Origin: a virus
IMG/VR virus record: IMGVR_UViG_3300044675_003592
Location: 1-20,201 of that record
Length of the DNA stretch: 20,201 nt
Direction: 5' to 3' (one strand)
A program made the position numbers and the translations under genes. The notes below the pieces were generated by a model that ran no database searches, had not been told where the DNA came from, and was given only the letters and a program-made list of their open reading frames with translations. This document shows, piece after piece, positions 2 to 20,201 of the stretch. Each line of letters begins with the position of its first letter. Position 1 is the stretch's first letter.

Positions 2-982
2 GCTATGTTGGCAACAGATGGTTTAAAAGCAAATGAAGAAGCGGTACAAAGCGGAAAGGATAAAGTAGATTTGTACAATCAAACCGTTAAAGATACTTTA
101 GAGATATTTCAAAGTGAGTTTTTTAGTGAGGCGGGTTTTCCTACATTGTTCAAAGCGTTAAACGATGATATTTTAGGGTTTGGAGAAAACTTTGCAGTAA
201 CGTTTAATACTATTACAGAAATAGCACAAGAAGCGTTTAATTATATTGCTAATTTATCTAATCAACGTTTTCAATCACAATACGAAAACTTAGCAAAAGA
301 AAAAGAAGTTGCTTTGATGTTTGCTGGAGAATCAGCAAGCGCAAGAGAAGAAGTAGAAAGACAATTTGAGGAAAAACAAAAAGCAATCCGCAAACGTGAA
401 TTTCAAGCACAAAAAAGAATGGCCTTATTTAATATTGCGGTTAATGGCGCACAAGCAATTATAGCAACTTTAGCACGTACACCGCTACCATTTGGATTAC
501 CTTTAGTACTTGCCACAAGCGCATTAACTGCTGTTCAATTAGGCGTAGTAGCAAGTCAAAAAATCCCCGAATTTTGGAAAGGTACAGATAACGCACCTGA
601 GGGATTGGCTTTAACACAAGAGCGAGGGCGTGAAATCATTACCGATAAATCGGGTAAAATTAAAAGTTTAGGTAGTGACAAAGGAGCGGAACTAACGTAC
701 TTAAACAAAGGCGATAGGGTATTTAATGCCGACAAAACAATGGAAATGCTTATGTTTGATAATTCGTTGAACAATATGCTAAACAATAGCGGAATATCAA
801 TGCCAAACATCGAAGTAAACACGCCTAAAATCGACTTACAACCCGTTATCGATGCGATAAAAAACAAAGATAGTATGGTGTTCAATTATGACCAAAACGG
901 GGCGAGAATATCACGTGTTACAGAAAACCAAACAATAGAATACGTAAACAGACGAGCGCAAGGAATAGGAAAAATATTTTAA
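2..982 (+). CDS. Tape measure protein, C-terminal part (5' truncated by window)
   Basis: The frame is open from the first bases, so the ATG at 5 is probably internal and the true start lies upstream. The visible 325 residues begin with helical, charged sequence (residues about 85-135, rich in E, K, Q and R, likely coiled coil). A hydrophobic stretch follows at about 140-185, and then a tail reading KGTDNAPEGLALTQERGREI with the later motif LNKGDRVFNADKT. This order (coiled coil, hydrophobic segment, then a GxE-rich tail ending in a 'KGDRVFNADKT'-type motif) is known from the C-termini of siphovirus tape measure proteins in Bacteroidota. Tape measures set tail length and line the tail tube, and the hydrophobic part may help DNA cross the inner membrane. 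The next genes encode tail-tip and fibre proteins, which fits the usual gene order. The family call is fairly firm. Confidence 0.75.
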   Translation, partial: AMLATDGLKANEEAVQSGKDKVDLYNQTVKDTLEIFQSEFFSEAGFPTLFKALNDDILGFGENFAVTFNTITEIAQEAFNYIANLSNQRFQSQYENLAKEKEVALMFAGESASAREEVERQFEEKQKAIRKREFQAQKRMALFNIAVNGAQAIIATLARTPLPFGLPLVLATSALTAVQLGVVASQKIPEFWKGTDNAPEGLALTQERGREIITDKSGKIKSLGSDKGAELTYLNKGDRVFNADKTMEMLMFDNSLNNMLNNSGISMPNIEVNTPKIDLQPVIDAIKNKDSMVFNYDQNGARISRVTENQTIEYVNRRAQGIGKIF

Positions 983-985
983 CAA

Positions 986-3601
986 ATGGCAAACAATCCA
1001 ATTGATACAAACGCATTTACTCACTTTTTAGAGTTTGTTAATTTCGCACCAAACGAACTTTATCAGATAACCGAACCTATTGGATGGGATGGGTGGCAAT
1101 ACACGTTAAAAGAAGAGCCGAGAAGATATGCGAGAAATACTTTTTTTGGTGGTGTTAATGAGTTGGAGTTTCCAAACAAAAGCGGATTTTTATTAGATGC
1201 TCCACGTGTAGTCAATGAATTAGGCGATTTATCCGAGTTTATGGATTACGGTTATCAGTGGTTAATATACGGACTTAAAACATACGGATTCGAGTTTAAG
1301 GTACGCTACCATTGTTTTGAAAATGGAATAGGTTTTGAGCCGTTAGTACTTGATTTAACCGATAAAGATGTTACCGATTTTAGAACGTATGTAAAAGCAA
1401 AGTTAATACAAGATAATACTATTCAAGATTATAAACGTCAATTTGATACAAAGATTAATCTATTTTCAGATAAGAACCTAAAAGGCGAAACCATCACACC
1501 GATTGAAACGGTTAACTATTTGCATATTGCAACGCCTAAAAACACTATTAGCAAATGGGTAAGTGATGGTTATAGTAGATTGACTTTTACACCGCTTGTA
1601 GGTCAATTGTATTTTAATCCGATGCAAGAGTTATCGCAAAGCGAAATAAGTAATACTTTAGCTTTTTTAGACCAAACCCCGCAAACTTCAGATCCATTCG
1701 ATGTATTTGGATTTGTAAAAGCAACAAAAACATTAACCAATGTAAAGATTAAATTCAAACTAAATTACCAAATACAAAGCGGTGGTACATTAACATTAAA
1801 AATACTAAAAGGTTTTGATAGTGGAACGTTAGACCTTGACCATTCAATACCTTTGAACGATGCAGAAGGCGTTTGGATAACTTATGATTTTGAGTACACT
1901 ATACCGATTATCTTCACTGGACAAACCGTATCTATTTACTTCCAGCAATTAGCTTACGATATTGAGTTTGAAGATAACTTTATTGAAATATCAGCAACTG
2001 AAACATCATTCAACAAAGTGTTTAAAGCGAGTAGATGGGTGGATATGGCTAAGCAATGCGACAAAGCAATTAATAACATAGGTGTTGATGCTCCTACCTT
2101 TGAAAGCGGTGGCGAGCATTTTAATAATTTAGTTTTTTGCCGTTCTATGATTAGCAATAACACCGAGATTTTTAATAGTTCTTTCAAAAATGCTTTAGAG
2201 AGTTTTATGGAAGTTAACAATGACTATGAGATCTATAATGATGTTATTCAAGTACGTAATTACGACGAATTTCACGCTAATAATGAAATAGGTGTGTTTT
2301 TAATTAATCCCGATAGAGAGGGCGTAATAGGTTATAATGACGAGTTACAAATTAATAATTGTAAAATCGAATGGAAAAAATTTGAGCAAGACCGTGAAGT
2401 ATCGGGAACGTCAAATGTAATCCACGCTAAATCGGAGTGGAATATTAAAAATGTAATGGTCGAAAATAAATTTGAAAAGAGTTTTGAGTTTATCCGCGAT
2501 CCTTTCCGTGTTCAAGATATTATTGATTCAGAAGTAAAAACACCAACAACCGTAACTTCAACAGATACTAACGATGATGTGTGCATAGTAAACGTTGTTC
2601 CATTAGCACCATCAGAGTTTAATACGTTGTTTTTATACGTAAATATGCGTGTTGTCGATGTATTGACTACCAATGCGGTTTTAGAAATGGTTAACCGAGA
2701 TAGTACTGGAGAGGAAATATATCTTATCTGGAATAGTATGGGTATCGGTGTTGGTTCAACTATACAATTATTAACGGGTGGCGTAAATGTTGGTAATTAT
2801 ACCGTTTTAGCTTTAGACACTAACTTTATAAGACTGCAACCACAAGCGGGAACAATACCAACTTTTAGCGGTGATGGTTTTATTATATTCAAATATTTTT
2901 ATAGTAACGTGCAATTTAAAACACGGACAAACGAGGGATTCAGTTTAGTTGATGGTGTACCAAATGGATTTAGTAATTTATATTACACACCAAAAAGAAC
3001 GTTATTACGATTCGGGCGAAATTTAAAAGCAATGTTACAATATAGCAGACAAAACATAACTATGTTAGATTATAAATTTAATCGTAATGTAATTACACGG
3101 TTGTCGAGTGAAAGCGAAAATGTAGTTGAAGTAGGCGATATTGTTTTTGATGATTTGCCAACGCAATTAATAAACGGACTTATTTACAATTTAGAATGCG
3201 TAGCCGATTATAACGAGGTGGTTAATATGCTAAATGAGTATAAAAATAATAAAGGATTCGTTAGAATGTACGATTTAAACAATGAAGTTGTACGTTTATA
3301 TATCAAAGATTTTACCTACACCGCTAAATTTAAAGAATTAAAAGTAATCGGAAAGGGTAAATTTGAAGTGCCTGAATTGATTATTACTGGTACGATTGGA
3401 AACCTATTTGTTAATGACGCACCTTATAATTTATCGGGTGTTGCTAATTGGTGGCGATTCCAAAACGACTATTTGCAGTTGTTCGATGAAAAAAGTAGAC
3501 CGATAAGCAATAAATACAAATATAATTTAGTAATTTTGAACAATGTAACGTATTCTACAAAAGAAGAATTGGTTGCGGAATTAGTACTATTAAATGAATA
3601 A
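986..3601 (+). CDS. Large tail-tip / baseplate-like protein
   Basis: This 871-residue protein follows the tape measure gene after three bases, where siphoviruses normally encode distal-tail and tail-associated proteins. I recognise no catalytic motif. The N-terminal 200 residues are rich in W, Y and F (for example ITEPIGWDGWQYTLKEEPRR), as in Bacteroidota tail-tip proteins. The middle and C-terminal parts look beta-rich, with many short alternating hydrophobic stretches. There is no signal peptide or membrane helix. By position it is likely a structural hub that joins the tail tube to the adhesion proteins encoded next. Its stop codon overlaps the start of the following gene by eight bases, which suggests coupled translation. 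The exact role (Dit-like, Tal-like or a fusion) cannot be settled from sequence alone. Confidence 0.6.
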   Translation: MANNPIDTNAFTHFLEFVNFAPNELYQITEPIGWDGWQYTLKEEPRRYARNTFFGGVNELEFPNKSGFLLDAPRVVNELGDLSEFMDYGYQWLIYGLKTYGFEFKVRYHCFENGIGFEPLVLDLTDKDVTDFRTYVKAKLIQDNTIQDYKRQFDTKINLFSDKNLKGETITPIETVNYLHIATPKNTISKWVSDGYSRLTFTPLVGQLYFNPMQELSQSEISNTLAFLDQTPQTSDPFDVFGFVKATKTLTNVKIKFKLNYQIQSGGTLTLKILKGFDSGTLDLDHSIPLNDAEGVWITYDFEYTIPIIFTGQTVSIYFQQLAYDIEFEDNFIEISATETSFNKVFKASRWVDMAKQCDKAINNIGVDAPTFESGGEHFNNLVFCRSMISNNTEIFNSSFKNALESFMEVNNDYEIYNDVIQVRNYDEFHANNEIGVFLINPDREGVIGYNDELQINNCKIEWKKFEQDREVSGTSNVIHAKSEWNIKNVMVENKFEKSFEFIRDPFRVQDIIDSEVKTPTTVTSTDTNDDVCIVNVVPLAPSEFNTLFLYVNMRVVDVLTTNAVLEMVNRDSTGEEIYLIWNSMGIGVGSTIQLLTGGVNVGNYTVLALDTNFIRLQPQAGTIPTFSGDGFIIFKYFYSNVQFKTRTNEGFSLVDGVPNGFSNLYYTPKRTLLRFGRNLKAMLQYSRQNITMLDYKFNRNVITRLSSESENVVEVGDIVFDDLPTQLINGLIYNLECVADYNEVVNMLNEYKNNKGFVRMYDLNNEVVRLYIKDFTYTAKFKELKVIGKGKFEVPELIITGTIGNLFVNDAPYNLSGVANWWRFQNDYLQLFDEKSRPISNKYKYNLVILNNVTYSTKEELVAELVLLNE

Positions 3602-4745
3602 CAACGTATCTTTTATAAAACTTTACAAATCATTATCCGAAGCGGTTGCATCGGAAAATCCACCCGTTAGTGAAATAAATTACACGGGTTTTATTCAGCA
3701 ACTACCAAACGAAACATTTTTACAAATCAGTTCAAGCGATGAAAGTATTTCATTTGTTAATGAATTTACAACCGATTTAGTAGATGGTTGTAATAATTTA
3801 ATAGCAAATATTAATAATAATTTTTACGCTGAATTTCGTGTTGATAGTGATGGGATTACTCAAATAGCGTTTGAGTTTGGAATGATTGGAACAGATTACG
3901 GAAGCACGGTTTTACATTTAAGATTAACCGATTCTACAAATGGTAATGTATGGTTTTCAAGTCCGTTTTTAATTACGAATAATAATAAAAAAATATCTAC
4001 ACGTTTTGACTATTGGGGCGAAAGCAAATTTAATAACATTAGTTACGATTTGTTTAATCGTAAGCAAAGTATTCGTTTGAGTAATTGTTATGATAACACC
4101 TCAGTAAATAAACGTGATTTAAAGCAGTATTTACAATCAAATGGTATGCAAGTAAGTTATAGAAGCGTAACGACTTATTTACGTCAATTTATACTTAATG
4201 CAATTGATTATTTTACTAACGATAGATTAGAAGTATTATTTTCGCACCCGATTGTATATGTTAACCGAGAGCGGTCAGATGTTTCAGATTTTAAAGTTGA
4301 TGAACGCAAAGGAGATACAAATTGGTTTAGTGGCGAATTCGTTATAAATCCAAAACGTCAATATTTACCCGTTGAGTATCAAATTTATCAAGGTTTAGAA
4401 ATAGTAGATTATATTCCTTTAGTTGGTGGTGTTACATCTGAAACTGATAGAATACAACTAACATTTAATAAACCCGTAACATTAGGAGTAGGAACGCTAC
4501 AAGTTTATAAAGATGGTGTTTTAATCGATACTTTTACTCAATCTGATGTAATTCTTTCAGGCGATGGATTGACAGTTAGAATAACACAAGAGTACACCGA
4601 CACTGGTTTATATTCAATTGTCGTAAGTAGCGGTTTATTTTTGAGCGGAGTTGAAACAATAGAAATAGTAAATCCTAATTGGACGTTTACAATTGCAACA
4701 GGCGAGTTTGATGCAGATGATTTTAGTACAGAATTTTTAACATAA
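3594..4745 (+). CDS. Tail adhesion/structural protein with C-terminal SbsA-type Ig-like domain
   Basis: This 383-residue protein has an N-terminal part (about 1-260) that I do not recognise and a C-terminal part, about 270-372, that reads like an SbsA-type bacterial Ig-like domain. Supporting segments are ITSETD-like VTSETDRIQLTFNKPV, a repeated V-x-V-Y-K-D-G strand, and the ending 'YTDTGLYSIVVSSG'. Such domains are common in surface-layer and adhesion proteins and in phage tail proteins, where they act as spacers or carbohydrate contacts. The start overlaps the upstream stop by eight bases. No signal peptide is present, as expected for a virion part assembled in the cytoplasm. I infer a baseplate or fibre-associated role from position between the tail-tip and fibre genes. 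The domain call is moderately sure; the role is inference. Confidence 0.55.
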   Translation: MNNNVSFIKLYKSLSEAVASENPPVSEINYTGFIQQLPNETFLQISSSDESISFVNEFTTDLVDGCNNLIANINNNFYAEFRVDSDGITQIAFEFGMIGTDYGSTVLHLRLTDSTNGNVWFSSPFLITNNNKKISTRFDYWGESKFNNISYDLFNRKQSIRLSNCYDNTSVNKRDLKQYLQSNGMQVSYRSVTTYLRQFILNAIDYFTNDRLEVLFSHPIVYVNRERSDVSDFKVDERKGDTNWFSGEFVINPKRQYLPVEYQIYQGLEIVDYIPLVGGVTSETDRIQLTFNKPVTLGVGTLQVYKDGVLIDTFTQSDVILSGDGLTVRITQEYTDTGLYSIVVSSGLFLSGVETIEIVNPNWTFTIATGEFDADDFSTEFLT

Positions 4746-4750
4746 ATAAT

Positions 4751-5170
4751 ATGGCAACAAAAGCAAATTTAATTAGCGCAGTAAACGGGTTTTTAACGGC
4801 AATAATAACGCAGTCAAAAGTACGTGATGCACAATTAGAAGTAATCGATGAACTTTACCCAAGTGCGGTAACTGATAATTCAACAGATGAAACGTACACA
4901 ACGCAAACCACACCAACGGTAACTTATGCAATACAAATAACAAAGCAAGGGCGTAGCGTTAGAATTAATGGAACGTACACAAATACAACGGGTTTAGCAT
5001 TACCCGCTGGAACTGAAATATTTGCTTTTAAAACAAATGAGTTTAGAGGTAGTACTTCGGAGTTTATTGGTGAAAACGTTATTTATACTCCTTATAAATT
5101 AAACTCAAGAGGTAGTATTGCGCCTTTTATCGGTACAAAATTTGAAATAATTATTAACTCAAACGACTAA
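4751..5170 (+). CDS. Small tail-region protein, unknown function
   Basis: This 139-residue protein has no function I recognise. The first 35 or so residues look helical (MATKANLISAVNGFLTAIIT) and could form a trimerisation stem. The rest is rich in T, N, G and Y with alternating hydrophobic residues (YAIQITKQGRSVRINGTYTN), suggesting a small beta-sandwich. That architecture, a short helical stem plus a beta head, is common among phage tail appendages. It sits five bases after the Ig-domain protein and four bases before the next adhesion-like gene, so it is likely co-transcribed and present in the tail tip. No cysteines or catalytic motifs stand out. Confidence 0.5.
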   Translation: MATKANLISAVNGFLTAIITQSKVRDAQLEVIDELYPSAVTDNSTDETYTTQTTPTVTYAIQITKQGRSVRINGTYTNTTGLALPAGTEIFAFKTNEFRGSTSEFIGENVIYTPYKLNSRGSIAPFIGTKFEIIINSND

Positions 5171-5174
5171 ACAA

Positions 5175-6005
5175 ATGGCTAACGGAGTATTAGAAAATAA
5201 CAGAATACCGCAATATTGTAAGAGCTTAGTAAATAAGTTTTGGCAGTTCAACGATAATTTTAGTTACAACACGGTAAGCGGTGGAAGTAATGGTGTGGCA
5301 AACAACAACCAAGAACGAGTGTATGAGGGCGATAAGTCTTTACTTGTTACCTTTACGGGAACGGGCGAATATCGATTTAACACGGGAGGTACTGAAACAA
5401 ACTTTGTAATACCTCGTGATGGGTGGTATTTGTTTAGTTACGCATTTTGGAAAGAAAATGTGAATGCAACCGTTACGTATAAAATTCAATTTTATGCGGA
5501 TGGCGTAGCGGATTCAGATAAACTACTTGAACAAACATTACATAATACAGAGGGATTTATTGACGGTCAATGGAATACTTATTTTCAATTTATTTACTTT
5601 AACGAAAATGATGTAGTTTCTGCCGATTGGTCAGTACAAGCGAGTGAGTTTAGCGGTACAAAAGTATATTTAGATGCCGTTATGGTAAACTTAAACGATA
5701 GAAATTTAACAATACCTCCTATTTATCAAAAACCCGAACCGACAATTATAGAAGTAGAAGAAGTAATTGATTTAGGTAGTATTGGTAGTAATTCATCGAT
5801 TGAATACGAAGTTACAATGCAAGGCGTTTTAGTTGGAGATTTTATTTGGCCAGCGTACCCAATAGAGTTAATAGATTTAGGTTTAGTTTTTGCCGTTCCA
5901 ACGGTAAGCGAACCTAACAAAATTAAATTTTTAGTACATAATAAATCAGGCGGTGCAATTAACCCCGCAAGTGGAAGTTATAAATTTTTAGCTTATAGAC
6001 AATAA
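5175..6005 (+). CDS. Beta-rich tail protein, possible carbohydrate-binding (jelly-roll-like) module
   Basis: This 276-residue protein has a segment at about 20-175 resembling carbohydrate-binding, galactose-binding-like modules. It opens with NKFWQFNDNFSYNT, has the 'EGDKSLLVTFTG' strand typical of these folds (compare 'sG..sl.v..'), and ends with a 'VYLDAVMVNLND' strand. The last 80 residues look like a second beta domain. Such modules in tail proteins often bind cell-surface glycans, which would suit adsorption to a flavobacterial host. The stop codon TAA at 6003-6005 shares a base with the ATG of the fibre gene. The fold assignment rests on pattern only, and glycan binding is inferred. Confidence 0.5.
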   Translation: MANGVLENNRIPQYCKSLVNKFWQFNDNFSYNTVSGGSNGVANNNQERVYEGDKSLLVTFTGTGEYRFNTGGTETNFVIPRDGWYLFSYAFWKENVNATVTYKIQFYADGVADSDKLLEQTLHNTEGFIDGQWNTYFQFIYFNENDVVSADWSVQASEFSGTKVYLDAVMVNLNDRNLTIPPIYQKPEPTIIEVEEVIDLGSIGSNSSIEYEVTMQGVLVGDFIWPAYPIELIDLGLVFAVPTVSEPNKIKFLVHNKSGGAINPASGSYKFLAYRQ

Positions 6006-9774: not shown

Positions 9775-10323
9775 ATGAAAAAAACAATCACAATCCTATC
9801 ATTCGTGTTTTTAACGGCTTGCTCCACAACCAAAAACAAGCAAAGCAAGTCCGAGAAATCAGAAACGAAAACGGAAATAGTCGTTAGCGAAAATTCAACG
9901 ATCAAAACCGATGCGCAAACAAACACGAAAACGACTACCGAAATCAGTACCAATACTGAAACAAACGAGGTAACAGAAACTACAACTATTGAGCCAATCG
10001 ACGCAACCAAACCCGCAACTTTTACAAATGAATCGGGCGAAGTTGTTAATTTGAACAATAGTAAAGTAGTAAAAAGCAAAACAAGTCGTAAGAACGTAGA
10101 TAAATCAAAAAGCAATGTAGTAGACGATAAAACGGAAATAATAGCGCAAATCGAAGAAAACGACAAAAAGACGTCAGAAAAACGACAAATGTCGAGTAAC
10201 AAAAAAGAAACTGACAAAAGTGTTGAGAGCAAATCTATATTTCTACATTTTTGGTGGCTATGGATTTTAATTGCTATTGCTATTTATATCGGTTGGAAAA
10301 ATAAATCTAAACTATTTTTATGA
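9775..10323 (+). CDS. Lipoprotein with C-terminal membrane anchor, candidate unimolecular spanin
   Basis: This 182-residue protein begins with a lipoprotein signal peptide: MKKTITILSFVFLTAC with lipobox L-T-A-C and the lipidated cysteine at residue 16. Residue 17 is serine, not aspartate, so sorting to the outer membrane is expected. Residues 17-155 are low-complexity, rich in T, K, E, S and N, and probably extended. The C-terminus has a hydrophobic helix at about 156-173 followed by WKNKSK. A protein anchored by lipid in the outer membrane and by a C-terminal helix in the inner membrane is exactly the plan of unimolecular spanins, such as T1 gp11, which fuse the two membranes in the last step of lysis. 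It lies downstream of the endolysin. Known spanins have little sequence similarity, so this rests on topology. An unrelated phage lipoprotein is the alternative. Confidence 0.6.
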   Translation: MKKTITILSFVFLTACSTTKNKQSKSEKSETKTEIVVSENSTIKTDAQTNTKTTTEISTNTETNEVTETTTIEPIDATKPATFTNESGEVVNLNNSKVVKSKTSRKNVDKSKSNVVDDKTEIIAQIEENDKKTSEKRQMSSNKKETDKSVESKSIFLHFWWLWILIAIAIYIGWKNKSKLFL

Positions 10324-11525
10324 CTAAAAAAGTAAGGTTGAAGCCATACGAAGCAATCGCTTTAGGTTTTGCAGTTAAAAAAAACCCGAACCGGGACGGA
10401 AATTTTGCATACAGACTTACAGAAAATCAAATAACGGAACTTAAAAAAATTAGAGAATTACAAAGTACAGAATTTACAGAGGTAAAAAGAACTTTAGACA
10501 AAGACGGATGTATTATATCTAAGGTAGAAAAATTAGTGCCGAAAGATTTAATCGATATACCAGTAAACCACCAAATAAAAAGACTTTCAACAAATGTTTC
10601 TACTCAACAACAATGGATTATTACAGAGCCGATAAAAGAAGTTGAAGCGGAAAAAGAAATAGATTTTTTAAGTATTTTTAAATCGGTTGTAACACCAGTT
10701 AAAATAATCCCTAAAAAATTAAAAGAAAAAGCATTATTTGATAGGGCGGTTTTTTGCGATGTTCACGTAGGTATGGAAGTAAATAAAGATGGTTTTTCAT
10801 TATACGATGGTCAATGGGATGAAACAGAATTATTTAAAAGGCGTGATATATTTGTTAATGAAATAGTAAAAAATCAAAAATCTAACGTTCTTTTACTTCA
10901 CGAGTTAGGCGATTTTATGGATGGATGGGATGGATTAACCACAAGAGGTGGTCACGCATTACCTCAAAATATGGATAATCAAAAAGCATTCGACGTCGGT
11001 TTGCGGTTTAAAATTACTTTAATCGACGCATTAGTACATCATTATAGTAAAATCCATATTGTAAATATTTGTAATGATAACCACGCTGGTAGTTTTGGGT
11101 ATATTGTAAACTCCGCTTTTAAGACTTATATTGAACTTAAATATAAAAACGTTATCGTTGTAAACCAACGTAAATTTATAGACCATTACTTCTTTAAAAA
11201 TCGTTGCTTTATATTAACTCACGGCAAAGACGATAAAAGTCTAAAATTTGGATTTAAACCGCAATTAGATGCAGTTCAAATAGAAAAAATTAAAAACTAT
11301 ATTGATGAATACAAATTGCACCTTTATAAGATTGAGTTTGGAAAAGCAGATAGCCACCAATTACTATTAGACTTTACTTCATCTACTGCTTTTGAATATC
11401 ATAATTTTGGGGCGTTTTCTCCGCCATCTGATTGGGTAAAGACAAACTTTAAAAATACAAATAGTTCTTTCACAACATTCAACTATTATGAAAATCAAAA
11501 AACCATTAACAATTATATTTTTTAA
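10320..11525 (+). CDS. Calcineurin-like metallophosphoesterase
   Basis: This 401-residue protein carries the ordered metal-binding motifs of the calcineurin-like phosphoesterase fold: D147-x-H149 in FCDVHVGM, G-D-x-x-D in GDFMDG (D198, D201), N-D-N-H (252-255), H301 in LTHGK, and D-S-H at 344-346. The third motif has N-D-N-H where G-N-H-D/E is usual, and the last has ADSH in place of G-H-x-H, so this is a divergent member. The first 130 residues are not recognised and may be a separate N-terminal domain. Such enzymes cleave phosphodiesters or phosphomonoesters; phage members are often DNA or nucleotide processing enzymes. The ATG overlaps the preceding lipoprotein stop (ATGA). The substrate is unknown. 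Confidence 0.7.
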   Translation: MTKKVRLKPYEAIALGFAVKKNPNRDGNFAYRLTENQITELKKIRELQSTEFTEVKRTLDKDGCIISKVEKLVPKDLIDIPVNHQIKRLSTNVSTQQQWIITEPIKEVEAEKEIDFLSIFKSVVTPVKIIPKKLKEKALFDRAVFCDVHVGMEVNKDGFSLYDGQWDETELFKRRDIFVNEIVKNQKSNVLLLHELGDFMDGWDGLTTRGGHALPQNMDNQKAFDVGLRFKITLIDALVHHYSKIHIVNICNDNHAGSFGYIVNSAFKTYIELKYKNVIVVNQRKFIDHYFFKNRCFILTHGKDDKSLKFGFKPQLDAVQIEKIKNYIDEYKLHLYKIEFGKADSHQLLLDFTSSTAFEYHNFGAFSPPSDWVKTNFKNTNSSFTTFNYYENQKTINNYIF

Positions 11526-13461: not shown

Positions 13462-13728
13462 ATGAAACTATACACCACAAAAGAATTACAAGAAGAAACG
13501 GGTTTAAGTAGTCAATGTCTTCTTGATAGAAGTAGAGCATTGAAAATTAACTTTAGAAAAATAAGTAACAAGGCTTATTTTACCGAAAAACAACGACTAC
13601 AAATTATAAATTTCAGAAACCGAAAAGATAAGTTTATGAATGTAGAAGTATCAACGGGGCACGATGTAAAAGTAATCCACCACACTACAACGTGGTGGAT
13701 AATTCCAAGTAAAATTAATTATTTATGA
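13462..13728 (+). CDS. Small HTH-like protein (MerR/excisionase-type pattern)
   Basis: An 88-residue basic protein. Residues 3-30, YTTKELQEETGLSSQCLLDR, look like the helix-turn-helix of small MerR or excisionase-like proteins: an aromatic-T-x-x-E-L start, G-L-S turn, then a recognition helix, followed by KISNKAYFTEKQRLQI, as in 'wing plus next helix'. It would bind DNA as a regulator, but the family call is only by pattern. Its end, residues about 71-80, encodes IHHTTTWWI within a perfect DNA hairpin at 13675-13700. The stop codon overlaps the start of the N6/N4 methyltransferase gene (ATGA), so it may be co-translated with it and affect its expression. Confidence 0.5.
   Translation: MKLYTTKELQEETGLSSQCLLDRSRALKINFRKISNKAYFTEKQRLQIINFRNRKDKFMNVEVSTGHDVKVIHHTTTWWIIPSKINYL
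13675..13700 (+). other. Perfect 9-bp inverted repeat in the end of the HTH-like gene
   Basis: ATCCACCAC (13675-13683) and GTGGTGGAT (13692-13700) are exact inverse complements around an 8-base loop. The hairpin lies 25 bases before the methyltransferase start and has no T-tract. It may be an operator or an RNA structure affecting the coupled start. No function is shown. Confidence 0.5.
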
Positions 13729-14387
13729 ATGATACAATATCAGAAGTGTATTTAGAAGATTGTGTAACGGCATTAAAACGCTATGCAGATAACCATTTTG
13801 ATTTGGCAATAGTTGACCCGCCTTATGGAATAAATGCTGATATAAAAAACAATGGCAAAAATAGTGATAGGCACGAAAAAACTTCTTTGGCTAAAATCAA
13901 TACCTATAAAAAAACAAATTGGGATAATGAAACGCCAAACGAAGATTATTTTAACGAACTAAAAAGAGTATCTAAAAAACAAATCATTTGGGGTGCAAAC
14001 TTCTTTGGATTAGTTGGAGGTATGCTTTACTGGCACAAAGGCGTAACAATGCCAACTTATAGTACTGGAGAACTTGCTTGGTTAAGTTGGTTGCAAAAAA
14101 TAGACTTTGTAAATATCACTTGGCACGGAATGCTACAACACAATATGAAAGACAAAGAACAAAGGATACACCCAACTCAAAAACCTGTGGCATTGTATGA
14201 TTGGTTATTATCAAATTATGCCAAAGAAGGCGATTTGATTTTAGACACCCATTTAGGAAGCGGAAGCAGTAGGATTGCAGCGTATAAAGGCGGGTTCAAC
14301 TTTGTAGGATTTGAAATAGACCAAGAATATTATGAGAAACAAGAAAAGCGTTTTAATGACTTTAAATCACAATTACGCTTATTTTAA
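13725..14387 (+). CDS. DNA methyltransferase, N6-adenine or N4-cytosine type (orphan)
   Basis: This 220-residue enzyme has DPPY (31-34), the catalytic motif IV of amino-methyltransferases, near the N-terminus. At the C-terminal side are IHPTQKP (148-154) and the S-adenosylmethionine-binding motif I in variant form, DTHLGSGSS (174-182, H where F or C is usual), followed by VGFEID. This order, catalytic motif before the cofactor motif, defines the beta class. Short size and no separate long target-recognition domain are usual for phage versions. No restriction endonuclease lies nearby, so it probably protects phage DNA or marks it. The recognition site cannot be read from sequence. It is followed immediately by a 58-bp repeat whose second copy follows the next methyltransferase. 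Confidence 0.85.
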   Translation: MNDTISEVYLEDCVTALKRYADNHFDLAIVDPPYGINADIKNNGKNSDRHEKTSLAKINTYKKTNWDNETPNEDYFNELKRVSKKQIIWGANFFGLVGGMLYWHKGVTMPTYSTGELAWLSWLQKIDFVNITWHGMLQHNMKDKEQRIHPTQKPVALYDWLLSNYAKEGDLILDTHLGSGSSRIAAYKGGFNFVGFEIDQEYYEKQEKRFNDFKSQLRLF

Positions 14388-14388
14388 C

Positions 14389-14446
14389 CCATTCCAAACA
14401 ACGCCCACCCATTGCGTAAATGGGAAATAATTAGTAAATTTAATAA
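14389..14446 (+). repeat. 58-bp direct repeat, copy 1 (before C5 methyltransferase)
   Basis: All 58 bases match copy 2 at 15544-15601, offset 1155. It starts one base after the methyltransferase stop and contains a stem-loop, CCCATT (14408-14413) with AATGGG (14419-14424) around GCGTA. The following sequence is A-rich, not a T-tract, so it is not a standard terminator. It ends 23 bases before the next ATG. Confidence 0.92.
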
Positions 14447-14469
14447 CTAAAAAGTAAAATTAATTATTT

Positions 14470-15543
14470 ATGAAAAAAGTACACGAGTTTCCATATAATT
14501 GGACTTTAAAAGATGCAAACTTTACAAAAGATAAAGGAAAAGTTTTTAGTTGCTTTGCTTGTGGCGGTGGTTCAACTATGGGATATAAACTGGCTGGATT
14601 TGATGTAATTGGTCACAATGATATTGATAAAAAAATGATTGAGGTTTACAAAGAAAATCACAAGCCGAAATATTCTTTTTTAGAAAGTATTACAACTTTT
14701 GCAAAACGTAAAGACTTGCCAAAAGAACTTTATAACCTTGATATTTTAGATGGTTCTCCCCCTTGCAGTAGCTTTAGTATGGCGGGTAATCGTGAAAAAG
14801 ATTGGGGTAAAGAAAAAGTATTTAGAGAGGGTCAAGAATTACAGGTTTTAGATACTTTATTTTTTGATTTTATTGATTTAACAAAAGAACTACAACCAAA
14901 AGTAGTTGTAGCTGAAAATGTAAAAGGATTGCTTTTAGGAAATGCAAAGCAATATGTAAGGCAGATTTATAGAGAATTTGATAAGGCTGGTTATTATTGT
15001 CAACACTTTTTATTAGATGCTTCAAAAATGGGTGTGCCACAACGTAGAGAAAGAGTTTTCTTTATTTGTTTACGTAAAGATTTAGCTAAACCATTTTTAC
15101 ACTATGCAGATATGTTTACAGAAGTTCCTAAAATAGAATTAGAGTTTAATGAAACTAAAATAAAATTTAGTGAAGTTTATACAGAAAATATAGATAGACC
15201 GATAACAGGTAAAACAATTGAATTATGGGAAAACAGAAGACAAACTGATAATGGATTAAGTGAGGCAAATGGAAGGATTTATAATAAACCAAATAATTAT
15301 TTTAATTGGACTTATTTAAGATATAACGATGTCCCACCAACAATCATTGCTAATGATACAACTGTCCTTTTTGATTATCCCAGATTTTTAGGTAAAATTG
15401 AATCTTGTAAAATAGGAAGTTACCCTTTAGATTATAATTTCTTAAAAATAAAACCTGAATATCTTATTGGAATGTCAGTGCCTCCAGTTATGACCGCACA
15501 AATAGCAAAACAAATATATGACCAATGGTTATCTAAATTATAA
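14470..15543 (+). CDS. DNA cytosine-5 methyltransferase (Dcm-like)
   Basis: This 357-residue enzyme has the ordered motifs of C5 methyltransferases. Motif I is a variant, FACGGGSTMGYKLAG (about 29-43), followed by NDID. Motif IV is GSPPCSSFS with catalytic cysteine 99, motif VI is AENVKG (148-153), motif VIII is QRRER (191-195), and motif X near the end reads MSVPPVMTAQIA. The target-recognition region lies between VIII and X (about 200-290) and is not recognised. Length is normal and there is no frameshift. No restriction enzyme is present, so it is likely a protective orphan methyltransferase. It is bracketed by a perfect 58-bp direct repeat, starting right at its stop codon on the 3' side, which suggests cassette-like gain or loss. 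Confidence 0.9.
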   Translation: MKKVHEFPYNWTLKDANFTKDKGKVFSCFACGGGSTMGYKLAGFDVIGHNDIDKKMIEVYKENHKPKYSFLESITTFAKRKDLPKELYNLDILDGSPPCSSFSMAGNREKDWGKEKVFREGQELQVLDTLFFDFIDLTKELQPKVVVAENVKGLLLGNAKQYVRQIYREFDKAGYYCQHFLLDASKMGVPQRRERVFFICLRKDLAKPFLHYADMFTEVPKIELEFNETKIKFSEVYTENIDRPITGKTIELWENRRQTDNGLSEANGRIYNKPNNYFNWTYLRYNDVPPTIIANDTTVLFDYPRFLGKIESCKIGSYPLDYNFLKIKPEYLIGMSVPPVMTAQIAKQIYDQWLSKL

Positions 15544-15601
15544 CCATTCCAAACAACGCCCACCCATTGCGTAAATGGGAAATAATTAGTAAATTTAATA
15601 A
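15544..15601 (+). repeat. 58-bp direct repeat, copy 2 (after C5 methyltransferase)
   Basis: Identical to copy 1 at 14389-14446. It starts the base after the TAA of the C5 methyltransferase gene and carries the same CCCATT/AATGGG stem-loop (15563-15579). The flanks of the two copies differ after the last base, so the homology ends sharply at both sides, apart from the stop-codon TAA and an extra C in copy 1. Confidence 0.92.
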
Positions 15602-15611
15602 AAAATAGAAC

Positions 15612-15677
15612 ATGAAAAACTTTAACGAATTTTGCAACTACTACCGAGGCAAAGGGATAGACCCGATAATATTATAA
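15612..15677 (+). CDS. Mini-ORF of 21 residues, uncertain
   Basis: A short ORF, MKNFNEFCNYYRGKGIDPII then L, located 10 bases after the second repeat copy in an A-rich leader and 19 bases before the next gene. It reads like a real small protein by composition but is too short to judge. It may be a leader peptide or the remnant of a gene cut when the methyltransferase cassette arrived. Confidence 0.3.
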   Translation: MKNFNEFCNYYRGKGIDPIIL

Positions 15678-15696
15678 ATTATTAAAACTGAAAATT

Positions 15697-16212
15697 ATGG
15701 AAACACGCACACACATTGACAAACTCCGAAACCCTAACTATTTAGGAGGTTGGGATTTAATGGACGAAAACGGCAAAACTATTGACCGAATCGTAACGAT
15801 TAAGGAAATTAAAAACGAATCAGTTTTTAACCAAAAAAATCAAATCGAGGAACAAGTTATCACACTTCTATTTGAGGAATGTAAACCAATTATCTTAAAC
15901 GCTACCAATCGTAAAACTCTTAAAAAAGTTACCGGCACAGAATATATTGAGGAAATGATTGGTAAAAAAATTCAACTGACTACAAAACGTATTAAGGCGT
16001 TTGGAGAGTTTCACGATGCAATACGTATCACAACTACCAAGCCGAGCGATGTAATTAGTAAACCTGTTGACGTATCGGATTGCCTCGAAAAGCTATCTAA
16101 ATGCACCACGTTAGCAGAACTGCAAACACAATGGACTGCATTCACGGCTCAAGAACAAAACGAAACAAAAGTATTAGCCGAAAAAGACCGCCTTAAATCT
16201 GTATTGAAATGA
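15697..16212 (+). CDS. Recombination-module protein, unknown function
   Basis: A 171-residue soluble protein starting METRTHIDKLRNPNYLGGWD. Residues 1-115 look like a compact beta-rich domain (VITLLFEECKPIILNA, IQLTTKRIKAFGEFHDAIRI) and the last 50 are helical. I recognise no family. It overlaps the start of the YqaJ exonuclease gene by four bases and is followed by an OB-fold gene, which is the place where phages usually encode a single-strand annealing or single-strand binding protein. A role as partner of the exonuclease is therefore plausible, but is inferred only from context. Confidence 0.55.
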   Translation: METRTHIDKLRNPNYLGGWDLMDENGKTIDRIVTIKEIKNESVFNQKNQIEEQVITLLFEECKPIILNATNRKTLKKVTGTEYIEEMIGKKIQLTTKRIKAFGEFHDAIRITTTKPSDVISKPVDVSDCLEKLSKCTTLAELQTQWTAFTAQEQNETKVLAEKDRLKSVLK

Positions 16213-16856
16213 AAATATACCACGACTTAGAACAAGGTTCGACCGAATGGCACGAACTTAGGCACGGAAAAATTGGCGGTACACGATCAAAACAAATCGC
16301 GATTAAAACCGATACGTTACTGATTGAATTATTGGCCGAATTAACAGAGCCATTCGATGAGGATGTAGAGCAATACAAATCGGATGCAATGGAAAACGGG
16401 AGTAATTTAGAACCGCAAGCACGTTTAGAACTCGCAAAGTACACGGGGGTTGAATTTTTAGAAGTGGGTTGGATTCAATCTGATGACGAACTTTTAGGAG
16501 TTTCGCCTGATGGAATTTCGCCTTGCGCTACAATTGGATGTGAAATTAAATGCCCCGAAGCAAAGGAACACATTAGAACTTGTTTAGCCGATGAAATACC
16601 ATTGAAACATATTGACCAATGCATTCACAACTTTACGGTCAATACCGAACTTAAGGAGTTTTATTTTATGTCGTACAGACCCGAAAGCGTAAAACCTATA
16701 TTCGTTAAAAAATTGACCCGTGAAAGTTTGGTTAATGTAGGTACTGAGGCGAAACCCGTATTTAAAAAAATATCGGAACAAATCGAAATCAACCGAGCGT
16801 GTGTTGAATTATTAAAAATAAAAATAACAGAATCATTAAACAAATTAAAATTTTAA
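16209..16856 (+). CDS. YqaJ-type viral exonuclease (lambda-exonuclease-like)
   Basis: This 215-residue protein matches the YqaJ viral recombinase family of PD-(D/E)XK nucleases. The family start QGSTEWHELRHGKIGGT (residues 9-25) includes the E-W-x-x-x-R core. The active-site segment is GVSPDG (97-102, acidic residue D101), then CEIKCP (111-116, E112-x-K114), and Q137 in HIDQCIHN. Such 5'-3' exonucleases resect double-stranded ends to leave 3' single strands for annealing by a phage recombinase. Length is typical. It is translated together with the unknown upstream gene (4-bp overlap) and followed after three bases by an OB-fold gene, forming a recombination set. Confidence 0.85.
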   Translation: MKIYHDLEQGSTEWHELRHGKIGGTRSKQIAIKTDTLLIELLAELTEPFDEDVEQYKSDAMENGSNLEPQARLELAKYTGVEFLEVGWIQSDDELLGVSPDGISPCATIGCEIKCPEAKEHIRTCLADEIPLKHIDQCIHNFTVNTELKEFYFMSYRPESVKPIFVKKLTRESLVNVGTEAKPVFKKISEQIEINRACVELLKIKITESLNKLKF

Positions 16857-16859
16857 ATT

Positions 16860-17141
16860 ATGGAAGTAGTAGGAAAAGTAAAAGTAATTAATCCCGTTCA
16901 ACAAGTATCGGCTTCGTTCAAAAAACAAGAGTTAGTTGTTACAACGGATGAACAATATCCGCAAGACATACTGATTGAATTTGTAAAGGATAACACCGAT
17001 TTGTTAAATGCTTTATCGGTTGGGGATAATGTGAAAGTATCAATAAATTTAGGTGGCCGAGAATGGGTTAACCCACAAGGCGAAACAAAATACTTTAACT
17101 CAATTAAAGGTTGGCGTGTAGAAAAAATATCTACATTTTAA
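16860..17141 (+). CDS. DUF3127-type OB-fold protein (single-strand DNA-binding candidate)
   Basis: A 93-residue protein with the DUF3127 pattern: MEVVGKVKVINPVQQVSASF, then FKKQELVVTTDEQYPQDILI, a GDNVKVSINLGGRE strand and a closing GWRVEKI. This family is predicted to adopt an OB fold and is common in Bacteroidota phages next to recombination genes. It could bind single-stranded DNA and replace a standard SSB. The start lies three bases after the exonuclease stop, and a terminator follows the stop. The family call is good; the ssDNA role is inferred. Confidence 0.75.
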   Translation: MEVVGKVKVINPVQQVSASFKKQELVVTTDEQYPQDILIEFVKDNTDLLNALSVGDNVKVSINLGGREWVNPQGETKYFNSIKGWRVEKISTF

Positions 17142-17151
17142 ACCCTAAATT

Positions 17152-17186
17152 AAATCCGAATTATTACAATGGTTCGGATTTTTTTT
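17152..17186 (+). terminator. Rho-independent terminator after the recombination unit
   Basis: A perfect 9-bp stem, AAATCCGAA (17152-17160) and TTCGGATTT (17173-17181), with a 12-base loop, runs into eight consecutive T residues. It separates the recombination genes from the helicase unit. Confidence 0.85.
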
Positions 17187-17187
17187 G

Positions 17188-17195
17188 TATGTTTG
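17188..17195 (+). promoter_or_regulatory. Promoter -7 element for the helicase unit (TAnnTTTG)
   Basis: TATGTTTG fits TAnnTTTG and follows the T-tract of the terminator directly. Transcription would begin near 17202, at the base of a long stem-loop. No convincing TTG -33 element is visible, as the terminator hairpin occupies that place, so the promoter may be weak or need an activator. Confidence 0.4.
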
Positions 17196-17200
17196 TACTT

Positions 17201-17272
17201 GTATTGACGTGAGAAGCAATGCAAATCGAAAATATTATATAAATCCTATCAAGGAGGCACTTCTCACAATAC
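17201..17272 (+). other. Structured 5' leader stem-loop upstream of helicase
   Basis: GTATT (17201-17205) and GTGAGAAG (17209-17216) pair with CTTCTCAC (17260-17267) and AATAC (17268-17272), giving 13 base pairs with a 3-base GAC bulge. The 43-base enclosed part contains a second hairpin, TCCT-ATCA-AGGA (17244-17255), which holds an AAGGAGG sequence, and a 7-codon ORF starting at 17219 (MQIENII). It would lie at the very 5' end of the helicase mRNA. Confidence 0.55.
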
Positions 17273-17306
17273 TGCCAAATTGATGGGATTTAACTTTTTT
17301 ATTAAT

Positions 17307-18965
17307 ATGCAGTTAAGGCCGTACCAACAAAATCAACTTGACCAAATTTTATTTAAGCTCCCGAGCGTAAATAAATTATGCGTTCAGTTAAGTACTGGAG
17401 GTGGCAAAACTATTATTTTTACCGAACTTACAAAGCAACTAAATACAGATACTTTGATATTAGTTGATAGTGAGGAATTAGTTAATCAGACTTTTAAAAC
17501 CTTTCAAAAGCAAGGAATTGATGTTGCTACTTTTGAAAGTAAAAACAAAATATTTCCTATTAATAAAGTTGTCGTTTCAATGGCTCAAACTTTATTTAAT
17601 CGGTTGCAAAAGAAACCGCAATTAATTGAAAGATTTAATTATCTTATAATTGACGAGGCGCATATTTGGGTTTTTAATAAAATATTTGATTATACTAAAG
17701 ATTGTAAAATAATAGGTTTTACCGCTACACCAGTAAGACTAAAAAGAATTAAGTATTATAAATGTAACGAGTGCAATACCGAGTTACCATTTGTAAAAGA
17801 ACTTGAAGGAGTTACCCATTGCGGTTATGAAATGAAAATTTGGACTAAAGAGGAAACGATGTCAAATGTTTACGATGATATTGTAGTTGGTGTAGGTATT
17901 GATTATTTAATTGATAATGATTTTTTAGTTGACGAGGAACTTTATAGTATTTCCGTAAATACCGCAAATTTAAAAACAGATGAAACTGGAGAGTTTACCG
18001 CTAAATCAATTGCTGAAACTTACGAGAAAGAAGAAATACAAATTGACATTTTACATAATTACGAGGAGTTATGTTTTGGTAAAAAGACTATGATTTTTAC
18101 CGCCTCAACTAAAGTTAATCTTTTAATATACGAAATGTTCAAAGAAAAAGGTTATAACGTAAAAATGTACGATAGCGTTAATAACGATAAAAAAGAACGC
18201 AAGCCGTTAATAAGATGGTTTGAAAACGAGAGAAACGCAATACTTTTAAATGTTTCATGTTTTACTAAAGGTTTCGATGTAGATGATGTTGAGGCTATTA
18301 TAATGGCAAGACCTACCGCCTCACTATCTTTATTTATTCAAATTGCTGGACGTGGCGCAAGACCAACAAAGAAAATATTTAAAGATAAGTTTATATTTAT
18401 TGATGGCGGTGGTAATTCAGACCGATTAGGAATGTGGTCAGATAAAACAAGAGATTGGGAAAAGATTTTTTTTAACGGGGTAAAACCGCCAAAACAATTA
18501 AAGGAAAGTTTAGATGATATAAACGAGTGTAACAATTGCGGATTTTTAAAAATGAAATCAGACAAAATTTGCCCTAATTGCAATTATGAAGAACCTATAC
18601 TTGAAGTTGAACAAAAAGAAGTTGAAATAGTTACAAATAAAGTAACAGCAGTTAAAATAAAACAAATTTACCCAAGTGGCGAAAAAATTATAAAGTATGT
18701 AAAATCAATTAACGAGGATATAAATTTTGCATTTAAAATACTTGTTAATCAAACTTTTGACTTATTTGTAAAAAATAGAGTTACATTTGGAAGTTACAAA
18801 AAATCTTTATTAGATGGTAATTTTGATAAAAAAATAAATCGTATCTTAGGAGAACCTTTTATAAAAATTATCAATGCTTTACCAAGTAAAAGTAATCGTA
18901 CTCTCGCTTATTTAAAATCAAAATTAAAAGACAAATTACAACAATATTATGATAAGATTCAGTAA
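17307..18965 (+). CDS. SF2 DEAD/DEAH-type helicase (ResIII-like) with zinc-binding motifs
   Basis: The protein of 552 residues (from ATG 17307) has the ordered motifs of superfamily 2 helicases: LRPYQ at the start (Q-motif region), Walker A STGGGKT (29-35), Walker B DEAH (116-119), FTATP (138-142), and QIAGRGAR (345-352, motif VI with arginine fingers). Two cysteine clusters stand out: C153-x2-C156 with H171-C172 in the middle, and C408-x2-C411 with C422-x2-C425, a zinc ribbon near the C-terminal third. The last 120 residues are unknown. I chose 17307 because the family begins with M-x-L-R-P-Y-Q; ATG 17283 or TTG 17280 would add eight or nine residues. It probably unwinds DNA for phage replication or recombination. 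Its end overlaps the next gene by 17 bases. Confidence 0.85.
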   Translation: MQLRPYQQNQLDQILFKLPSVNKLCVQLSTGGGKTIIFTELTKQLNTDTLILVDSEELVNQTFKTFQKQGIDVATFESKNKIFPINKVVVSMAQTLFNRLQKKPQLIERFNYLIIDEAHIWVFNKIFDYTKDCKIIGFTATPVRLKRIKYYKCNECNTELPFVKELEGVTHCGYEMKIWTKEETMSNVYDDIVVGVGIDYLIDNDFLVDEELYSISVNTANLKTDETGEFTAKSIAETYEKEEIQIDILHNYEELCFGKKTMIFTASTKVNLLIYEMFKEKGYNVKMYDSVNNDKKERKPLIRWFENERNAILLNVSCFTKGFDVDDVEAIIMARPTASLSLFIQIAGRGARPTKKIFKDKFIFIDGGGNSDRLGMWSDKTRDWEKIFFNGVKPPKQLKESLDDINECNNCGFLKMKSDKICPNCNYEEPILEVEQKEVEIVTNKVTAVKIKQIYPSGEKIIKYVKSINEDINFAFKILVNQTFDLFVKNRVTFGSYKKSLLDGNFDKKINRILGEPFIKIINALPSKSNRTLAYLKSKLKDKLQQYYDKIQ

Positions 18966-20201
18966 ATACCCGACTGCAAAAAGTATCGATAAAATAGATA
19001 TTGATATTCAAGATTATATTGATATGGTTCAAAAAGGAACGTATCAAGATTTGGTTTTAAAGGCACGTTCTTTAAAAAATGACGAGGTAAAATATAAGGA
19101 GTGCAAAATAAAAGCACCTTGCATAACTGGTTCGGCAGTGATGAAAAACGGAAGTAAAACCGCTGATAACATCGATGAGTTAAACGGCTTGATAGTTATT
19201 GATATTGATGATGATGTAGATTTGCAACTTCTTAATAAAATTAATCAAGACAAATATACTATGATGTCGCACCGCTCTTTTGGTGGCGATGGCTTGTGTG
19301 TTTTTATTAAAATAAACTCGAATAAGTTTTTAGAATCATTTAACGAACTTGCTCAATACTATTGGGATAATTTTAACGTAGCGATTGACCCAAGTTGTAA
19401 AAATAAAAATAGACTTAGGTTTATTTCGTATGATCCTTATTTATTTTTAAATGAAAATAGTAAAAAGTTTATCGCAAAGCAAGTTATAAAAAAGGACAAA
19501 ACACATAATTTTGTTTTCGTTAATGATGATTTTCAAACTATTTTATCACAAATACAAGAGAAACAAATTGACCTTTGCCAAGATGATTACGACCGATATG
19601 TAAGAATTGGCTTTGCTATTGCTTCAAAATTCGGCGAAAGCGGTTTTGTTTATTTTGATGCTATTTGTAAATATGGCAGTAAATATGATGCAAATAAAAT
19701 CGAAAAGCATTATAAAAACTTTTGCAAAAACAACGGACAAGTTTCAATATCTACTATTTATTTTTACGCTAAAGAAGCGGGTTTAAAACTATATTCAGAA
19801 AAAACTGAAACTATTATTAATCGGGTTTCAGTTGCTAAAAGTCAAGGAAATCCAACAATAGAAAGCGTAAAAAAATCCCTTGAAAAAATTAATAATATTA
19901 CCGATGCTGACGAAGATTTAATAAAATTCTTAATAGATAGCAAAAAAGATTTTAAACAACTTGACGAAAATTTAACCGATAGTAAAAAATTACAGAATTT
20001 TATATTTGAAAATTATAATCCAGTTAAAGATATAATTACTAACGAGGTTTTTATTAATGGTCAACTTTTAGACGATGTAAAACTTAATACTATTTACTTT
20101 GCGTGTAAAAATTATTTGGATTTTATACCAAGTAAATCAGACGTTAGAGATATGATTAATAGTGAACACACTACTTTTTTTAATCCGATTAACGAGTTTT
20201 T
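18949..20201 (+). CDS. VirE_N / PriCT_2 primase-like replication protein (3' truncated by window)
   Basis: The frame opens at ATG 18949 and stays open to the window end (417 codons). The N-terminal 175 residues match the VirE_N (BT4734-like) domain: ITGSAVMKNG, then LIVIDIDDD (81-89) with acidic D85, D87 and D88, and SHRSFGGDGLCVFIK (107-121). The acidic cluster and the G-G-D-G turn resemble the active site of archaeo-eukaryotic-type primases. Residues about 195-280 look like PriCT_2, a helical domain that follows such primases. Phage and mobile-element proteins of this plan often continue into a VirE helicase/ATPase domain, which would lie beyond the window. It likely primes or starts phage DNA replication. 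It overlaps the helicase gene by 17 bases, so the two are made together. Confidence 0.8.
   Translation, partial: MIRFSKYPTAKSIDKIDIDIQDYIDMVQKGTYQDLVLKARSLKNDEVKYKECKIKAPCITGSAVMKNGSKTADNIDELNGLIVIDIDDDVDLQLLNKINQDKYTMMSHRSFGGDGLCVFIKINSNKFLESFNELAQYYWDNFNVAIDPSCKNKNRLRFISYDPYLFLNENSKKFIAKQVIKKDKTHNFVFVNDDFQTILSQIQEKQIDLCQDDYDRYVRIGFAIASKFGESGFVYFDAICKYGSKYDANKIEKHYKNFCKNNGQVSISTIYFYAKEAGLKLYSEKTETIINRVSVAKSQGNPTIESVKKSLEKINNITDADEDLIKFLIDSKKDFKQLDENLTDSKKLQNFIFENYNPVKDIITNEVFINGQLLDDVKLNTIYFACKNYLDFIPSKSDVRDMINSEHTTFFNPINEF

Follow-up and report, generated by a model that had tools for sequence, protein, structure and literature searches.

A 58-bp direct repeat as the probable right edge of a slot for DNA-modification genes in a Flavobacterium-type phage

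Short conserved sequences at the edges of modules have been discussed as the homology that allows swapping in mosaic phages (PMC3029335). In T4-like phages the promoter early stem-loops (PeSLs), small intergenic stem-loop elements repeated beside exchanged genes, are thought to mediate shuffling (Arbiol 2010; Comeau 2014, as cited in PMC4503421), and cluster K mycobacteriophages carry repeats just upstream of the start codons of some genes, the SAS/ESAS, some of them with an inverted repeat (PMC3203893). DNA methyltransferases occur as exchangeable single-gene units in integron-like gene cassettes of phages (CALINs), for example in Polaribacter phage P12002L (PMC9892861). In the present study we have analysed a 20,201-bp stretch of viral DNA, hereafter the window (positions 1 to 20,201 of IMG/VR record IMGVR_UViG_3300044675_003592), in which two methyltransferase genes are followed by the same 58-bp element. 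We consider it probable that this element represents the fixed right edge of a slot that exchanges DNA-modification genes, and that the window has stacked two alleles of the slot in tandem.

The two copies of the element lie at 14389-14446 and 15544-15601, with an offset of 1155, and are identical over 58 bp with both ends sharp, as the first-pass annotation had described. They form the longest exact repeat of the window, the runners-up being 23 bp and 17 bp long. The previous observation that each methyltransferase is followed by the element is also correct, with a gap of 1 base after the stop of the N6/N4 gene and of 0 bases after that of the C5 gene. Copy 1 continues into CTAAAAAGTA, which is also found behind the element of a related genome (G003), and copy 2 into AAAATAGAA, which is also found behind the single copy of another (G001). 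Within each copy there is a 6-bp inverted repeat (CCCATT gcgta AATGGG; 14408-14424 in copy 1 and 15563-15579 in copy 2), to which no strand is assigned; the genes, frames, repeats and boundaries of the window described here are all given on the + strand. A comparison with Rfam gave nothing but a sub-threshold chance match at 17492-17527.

The first cargo gene (13725-14387) encodes an N6/N4 DNA methyltransferase of 220 aa (Pfam N6_N4_Mtase, PF01555, 3e-17), and the second (14470-15543) a C5 cytosine DNA methyltransferase of 357 aa (Pfam DNA_methylase, PF00145, 4.5e-49). The 23-bp repeat, second in length among the exact repeats, has one copy before each of them (13707-13729 and 14452-14474). 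With the 58-mer behind both, each gene thus sits in the same bracket, the order being leader, N6 gene, 58-mer, leader, C5 gene, 58-mer, and these brackets are made of the two longest exact repeats in the 20 kb. The second copy of the 23-bp repeat ends in frame with ...LKSKINYL and a stop, resembling the small helix-turn-helix-like (HTH) protein upstream. This protein of 88 aa, taken from the ORF list (13462-13728; phrog_29042, E=1.4e-5, residues 1-39), is encoded by a gene that overlaps the start of the N6 methyltransferase by 4 nt (offset -4) and whose 3' end is the left boundary of the cargo slot (13674-13729), formed by a perfect 9-bp hairpin, ATCCACCAC...GTGGTGGAT, together with the leader AAGTAAAATTAATTATTTATGAA. 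At the DNA level the N6 gene shares 96% identity over 647 bp with a gene of G002, a phage with unrelated flanks (window 13740-14386, G002 9779-10425). As it is near-identical, up to the stop codon, to a gene of an otherwise unrelated phage, the N6 and C5 genes of the window appear from this comparison to have separate origins. The match to G002 is bounded by codon 6 and the stop codon, the pattern of an ORF-precise transfer.

To the right of copy 2 the shared backbone resumes at a small ORF, MKNFNEFCNYYRGKGIDPIIL (15612-15677), with a start that is also conserved in both G001 and G003 (39 bp at 97.4% against G003). It is followed by a backbone protein of 171 aa (15697-16212; phrog_21613) and a YqaJ-family exonuclease (16209-16856; Pfam PF09588, 5.8e-16). 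The 171-aa neighbour of the exonuclease is predicted, from a structural model of moderate confidence (mean pLDDT 72), to be a probable OB-fold ssDNA-binding protein, its best solved match being PrgE (6e-4), with DUF669-like viral matches as well. Among 27 wider relatives, the site on the left of the 171-aa/YqaJ pair varies strongly. Further to the right, behind a DUF3127 gene, a strong intrinsic-terminator-like hairpin with a T run is seen at 17152-17181.

Scanning IMG/VR with a 26-bp core of the element gave one further contig, G001 (IMGVR_UViG_3300042898_002186, also L175), and a 20-bp probe gave G003 (IMGVR_UViG_3300017766_002297). No carrier was found among the IMG/VR records beyond the window, G001 and G003, nor was there a credible match to the 58-bp region among 50,697 named phage genomes; with three phages carrying the element, few genomes bear on its history. 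The match of a bacterial genome to a 20-mer (L176) was judged to be chance because the flanking sequence mismatches.

In G001 a single 58-mer, identical to that of the window, stands right behind the stop of a 264-aa ORF. To the right of the element this contig is 98.8% identical over 4617 bp to window 15588-20201, so that for practical purposes G001 and the window are the same phage, and this backbone identity is reached after a 62-aa ORF that is present in G001 only. The left side of G001 is unlike that of the window and carries the end of a C5 methyltransferase (78% identical, 151 bp), a DNA methyltransferase of 463 aa (phrog_498, 5.4e-38) and the 264-aa ORF. We also noted that the 62-aa ORF lies between the 58-mer and MKNFHEFC, as an ATG-to-ATG gain or loss (window 15602-15614 against L175), the window continuing after copy 2 almost straight to the next ATG. 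In G001 the C5 gene and the gene of the 463-aa methyltransferase are separated by an apparently structured intergenic stretch, ACGTGAAGTAAGGCGCACGTGAG..., at approximately 16660-16550 on the - strand, and L174, L186 and L194 have stretches resembling it to the left of the 171-aa gene.

The second relative, G003, has 39,069 bp with 123-bp identical ends and is thus a complete genome. It contains one copy of the element (96% over 74 bp, 56/58 in the 58-mer), where the window has two, directly after the stop of a 301-aa PAPS-reductase-like protein (phrog_424, 5.5e-9). An identity of 56/58 is unexceptional, as 5.5% of the aligned 58-column windows in these mosaic genomes reach it, and special conservation of the 58-mer was dropped against this background. 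The cargo gene of G003 is preceded by the left boundary of the window, namely the hairpin and the leader AAAGTAAAATTAATTATTTATG (G003 1073-1128, 92.9% identity over 56 bp), and a different cargo gene comes next. In three phages, then, the element is located directly after the stop codons of different cargo genes, which are the 264-aa ORF in G001, the PAPS-reductase-like gene in G003 and the N6 and C5 methyltransferases in the window, and rightward all three rejoin at the small ORF MKNF(N/H)EFCNYYRG and then share the backbone. The presence of the element behind other genes in relatives, and of single-copy relatives with different cargo, supports the earlier reading of a recent duplication or insertion, here at a boundary prone to recombination.

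We propose that in this Flavobacterium-type phage group the 58-mer, which would cover most of the stretch from the stop of the cargo to the leader of the next gene, closes the slot on its right side, and that the hairpin-plus-leader at the 3' end of the small HTH gene (13674-13729) forms its left edge. An allele composed of left leader, N6 gene and 58-mer would have been joined by recombination to an allele composed of left leader, C5 gene and 58-mer, with the end of one 58-mer (...AAAAAGTARAATTA) exchanging with the similar leader of the other allele (AAGTAAAATTAATTATTT). The outcome would be two modification genes stacked with the same bracket around each, and the homology between the two copies could serve for later loss or exchange. 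The homology at the proposed junction is short; in G003 the end of the element and the leader agree in 11/12 bases, with one mismatch and an exact contiguous run of 6 bp. A parental allele with the C5 gene alone in the slot was not found. Both copies look genuine, as the continuation of copy 1 is found in G003 and that of copy 2 in G001; this independent support concerns the right-hand continuations only, while the left junctions, N6 to 58-mer and C5 to 58-mer, are seen in the window alone.

The finding adds a case to the known mosaicism at boundary sequences. Like the boundary sequences discussed in PMC3029335, the 58-mer is a short conserved edge of exchangeable genes, but the window holds two cargo genes in tandem and with them two copies of the boundary, whose left-hand counterpart is identifiable too. 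The 58-mer shares with the PeSLs, as these are summarised in PMC4503421, the character of a small intergenic stem-loop element next to exchanged genes; it differs from that summary in having two copies rather than many, in its phage group and in having no supported promoter and no terminator, since its promoter-like match is weak and unenriched and its 6-bp stem has no T run on the coding strand, with a fold no better than shuffles. The SAS are 13 bp long, with 11-19 copies per genome and a fixed place at the start codon (PMC3203893), whereas the element has 58 bp and 1-2 copies at one locus (one in G003, two in the window). With the CALINs the window has in common that methyltransferases are exchangeable units. 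However, integron cassettes possess complementary ends and attC hairpins, while the bracket of the window is made of direct repeats without an attC-like core; the longest inverted match around its N6 gene is 10 bp and the GTTA...TAAC cores of relatives are absent. An integron attC reading of the 58-mer, whose first half looks attC-like, was accordingly rejected for the absence of the cores and of a complementary partner flanking the gene.

Integron-like cassettes were observed elsewhere in the survey. Methyltransferase relatives in Flavobacterium-type phages often sit in such cassettes, with attC-like palindromes between the genes. A core such as GTTACCAGCAGTGCC lies near the gene start and its complement, GGCATTGCTGGTAAC, after the stop; core and complement change together between cassettes (GTTAGGT...ACCTAAC), and between the cassettes lie long palindromes, the majority of them with a better fold than shuffled sequences. 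The loci are L119 1-3900, L051 3530-4800, L084, L096, L099, L102, L105, L110 and L163 around 4980-5670, and L264 (MN812240) 600-3660. Named Muminvirus genomes (filifjonk, tooticki) contain them, and in tooticki6-1 three consecutive methyltransferases show this pattern. For other phages, attC clusters that include methyltransferases have already been published (PMC9892861).

The repeat had been labelled noncoding, which is uncertain in view of one frame that is open across its whole length. In copy 1 this frame spans 14388-14450 (PIPNNAHPLRKWEIISKFNN, stop), in frame directly after the N6 stop, and in copy 2 it spans 15537-15608 (IITIPNNAHPLRKWEIISKFNKK, stop); the peptide read from the 58-mer is (T)IPNNAHPLRKWEIISKFNN or ...KFNKK. 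The copy of G001 forms a 24-codon ORF whose ATG overlaps the previous stop. A functional gene of 20-24 codons with a conserved product, the repeat being a gene duplication, would account for a frame open in 4/4 copies, for the overlap of the previous stop by ATG in G001 and TTG in G003, and for the nature of the two substitutions, one synonymous (CGT/CGG) and one from Ser to Asn. Two substitutions have no statistical weight, however, and with ATG, GTG and TTG all missing from the head of the frame in both window copies, and with no credible match to the peptide in 50,697 phage records, we regard such a gene as very improbable. The end of the frame resembles the tail (W/F/Y)xI..SK(M/I/L/F/V)N of small Bacteroidetes-type phage ORFs, in which the next gene very often starts 4 to 14 bases before the end of the tail, and the HTH protein encoded ahead of the N6 methyltransferase has the same type of tail (TWWIIPSKINYL). 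The strict motif is present in 29 of 64,399 stop-terminated segments. Shuffled-peptide tests gave p values of 0.01-0.05 for the better matches and no signal for several tails (summed score, p=0.0125), and the comparison of the 58-mer with the HTH tail at the DNA level gave p=0.04, which is suggestive of a relationship between the end of the 58-mer and the tails of small HTH proteins. In G003 and L173 such tails stand ahead of cargo genes in detached form, in a frame different from that of the preceding HTH gene. Tails of the form (W/F/Y)xI..SK(M/I/L)N, usually overlapping the next start, were seen at L188 2634, L182 1127, L202 5713, L203 5856, L233 4962, L262 538 and window 13728. The 58-mer may derive from the 3' end of a small ORF with such a tail, a stretch that doubled as the leader for the next gene. 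A wider reading takes the HTH-tail sequences, that is the left hairpin-leader and the 58-mer, as a general docking element of Bacteroidetes phages, of which the 58-mer would be the fully detached form; each tail ends where the next gene begins, so that a modification gene inserted behind it would be translated. We hold this generalisation to be unlikely.

The probable slot has also to be weighed against the proposal of the first-pass annotation that recombination between the copies excises the 1155-bp C5 unit as a loop, so that variants with C5 methylation and variants lacking it would occur in one population. The idea is mechanically sound, as the collapse, in which ...TTTTAACCCATTCC...TTTAATAA is joined directly to AAAATAGAACATG, would produce the order N6, 58-mer, backbone, matching the single-copy layout of G001 and G003; the 58 bp are perfectly identical, in direct orientation and flank the C5 gene, and the phage encodes the YqaJ exonuclease. 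Nevertheless, the IMG/VR searches gave no genome with the collapse junction, the single-copy relatives differ in whole cargo sets instead of being the same locus minus C5, and a loss by deletion could be reversed only by acquiring the unit anew. Among 158 other related methyltransferase loci, none has a flanking direct repeat of at least 25 bp (longest 23 bp, median 9), which rules out direct-repeat bracketing as a general habit of these methyltransferases. Loop-out between the copies is plausible, but such coexisting variants are rather unlikely, and nothing found here demonstrates an evolved or programmed C5 switch. One-copy genomes do exist in G001 and G003, but their cargo differs and neither is the clean loss of C5 for which the annotation had suggested looking. 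As regards the involvement of a YqaJ module, the exonuclease is real and has an ssDNA-binding-like OB-fold neighbour, but an annealing protein was not found and there is no sign of a link between the module and the repeat. The longest bracket of the 158 loci, the window apart, is a 23-bp direct repeat, GCCGCCGACATCATACGCAAATA, around another N6 methyltransferase in L158.

A duplicated regulatory site (promoter, operator or RNA hairpin), each new gene needing its own control region as with the PeSLs of T4-like phages, would explain the position of the 58-mer between stop and start codons, the perfect 17-bp dyad CCCATTgcgtaAATGGG, which in G003 is altered in the loop only, and the resemblance of TTG-N20-TAAATTTA to a Bacteroidetes promoter. 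Yet the variant carried by the element, with a spacer of 20 and A as its last base, is unenriched (7 v 8, four of the 7 being the element itself), while TTG-N19-TAnnTTTG is enriched in sense-strand intergenic DNA of this phage group (20 v 5), and a promoter found no support in a scan with the motif learned from this group. The RNA fold has a z of about -1 against shuffles, further copies of the dyad, as an operator might have, do not exceed chance in either the window or G001, and as no T run comes after the stem, the coding strand lacks an intrinsic terminator. On this analysis a duplicated control site would be distinctly unlikely. A false joining in tandem of strain variants of one locus comes to mind because the window is a metagenomic contig and G001 proves that strain variants of the locus exist; but the differing right-hand continuation of each copy is present in an independent contig, which argues against an assembly chimera, and 58 bp is below ordinary short-read length, so that an artefact is highly improbable.

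Phage methyltransferases help to set which host strains a phage can infect, and in Baltic Flavobacterium phages poor plating on one host goes with the lack of one methyltransferase (PMC7077304). The pair of near-identical genomes with different cargo makes the process testable. Should the tails indeed act as a general docking element, recombination between them would let phages stack, swap and drop methyltransferases. The same bracket around two methyltransferases in the window, and around other modification genes in sister phages, indicates how such genes may be stacked or exchanged with the operon unbroken.
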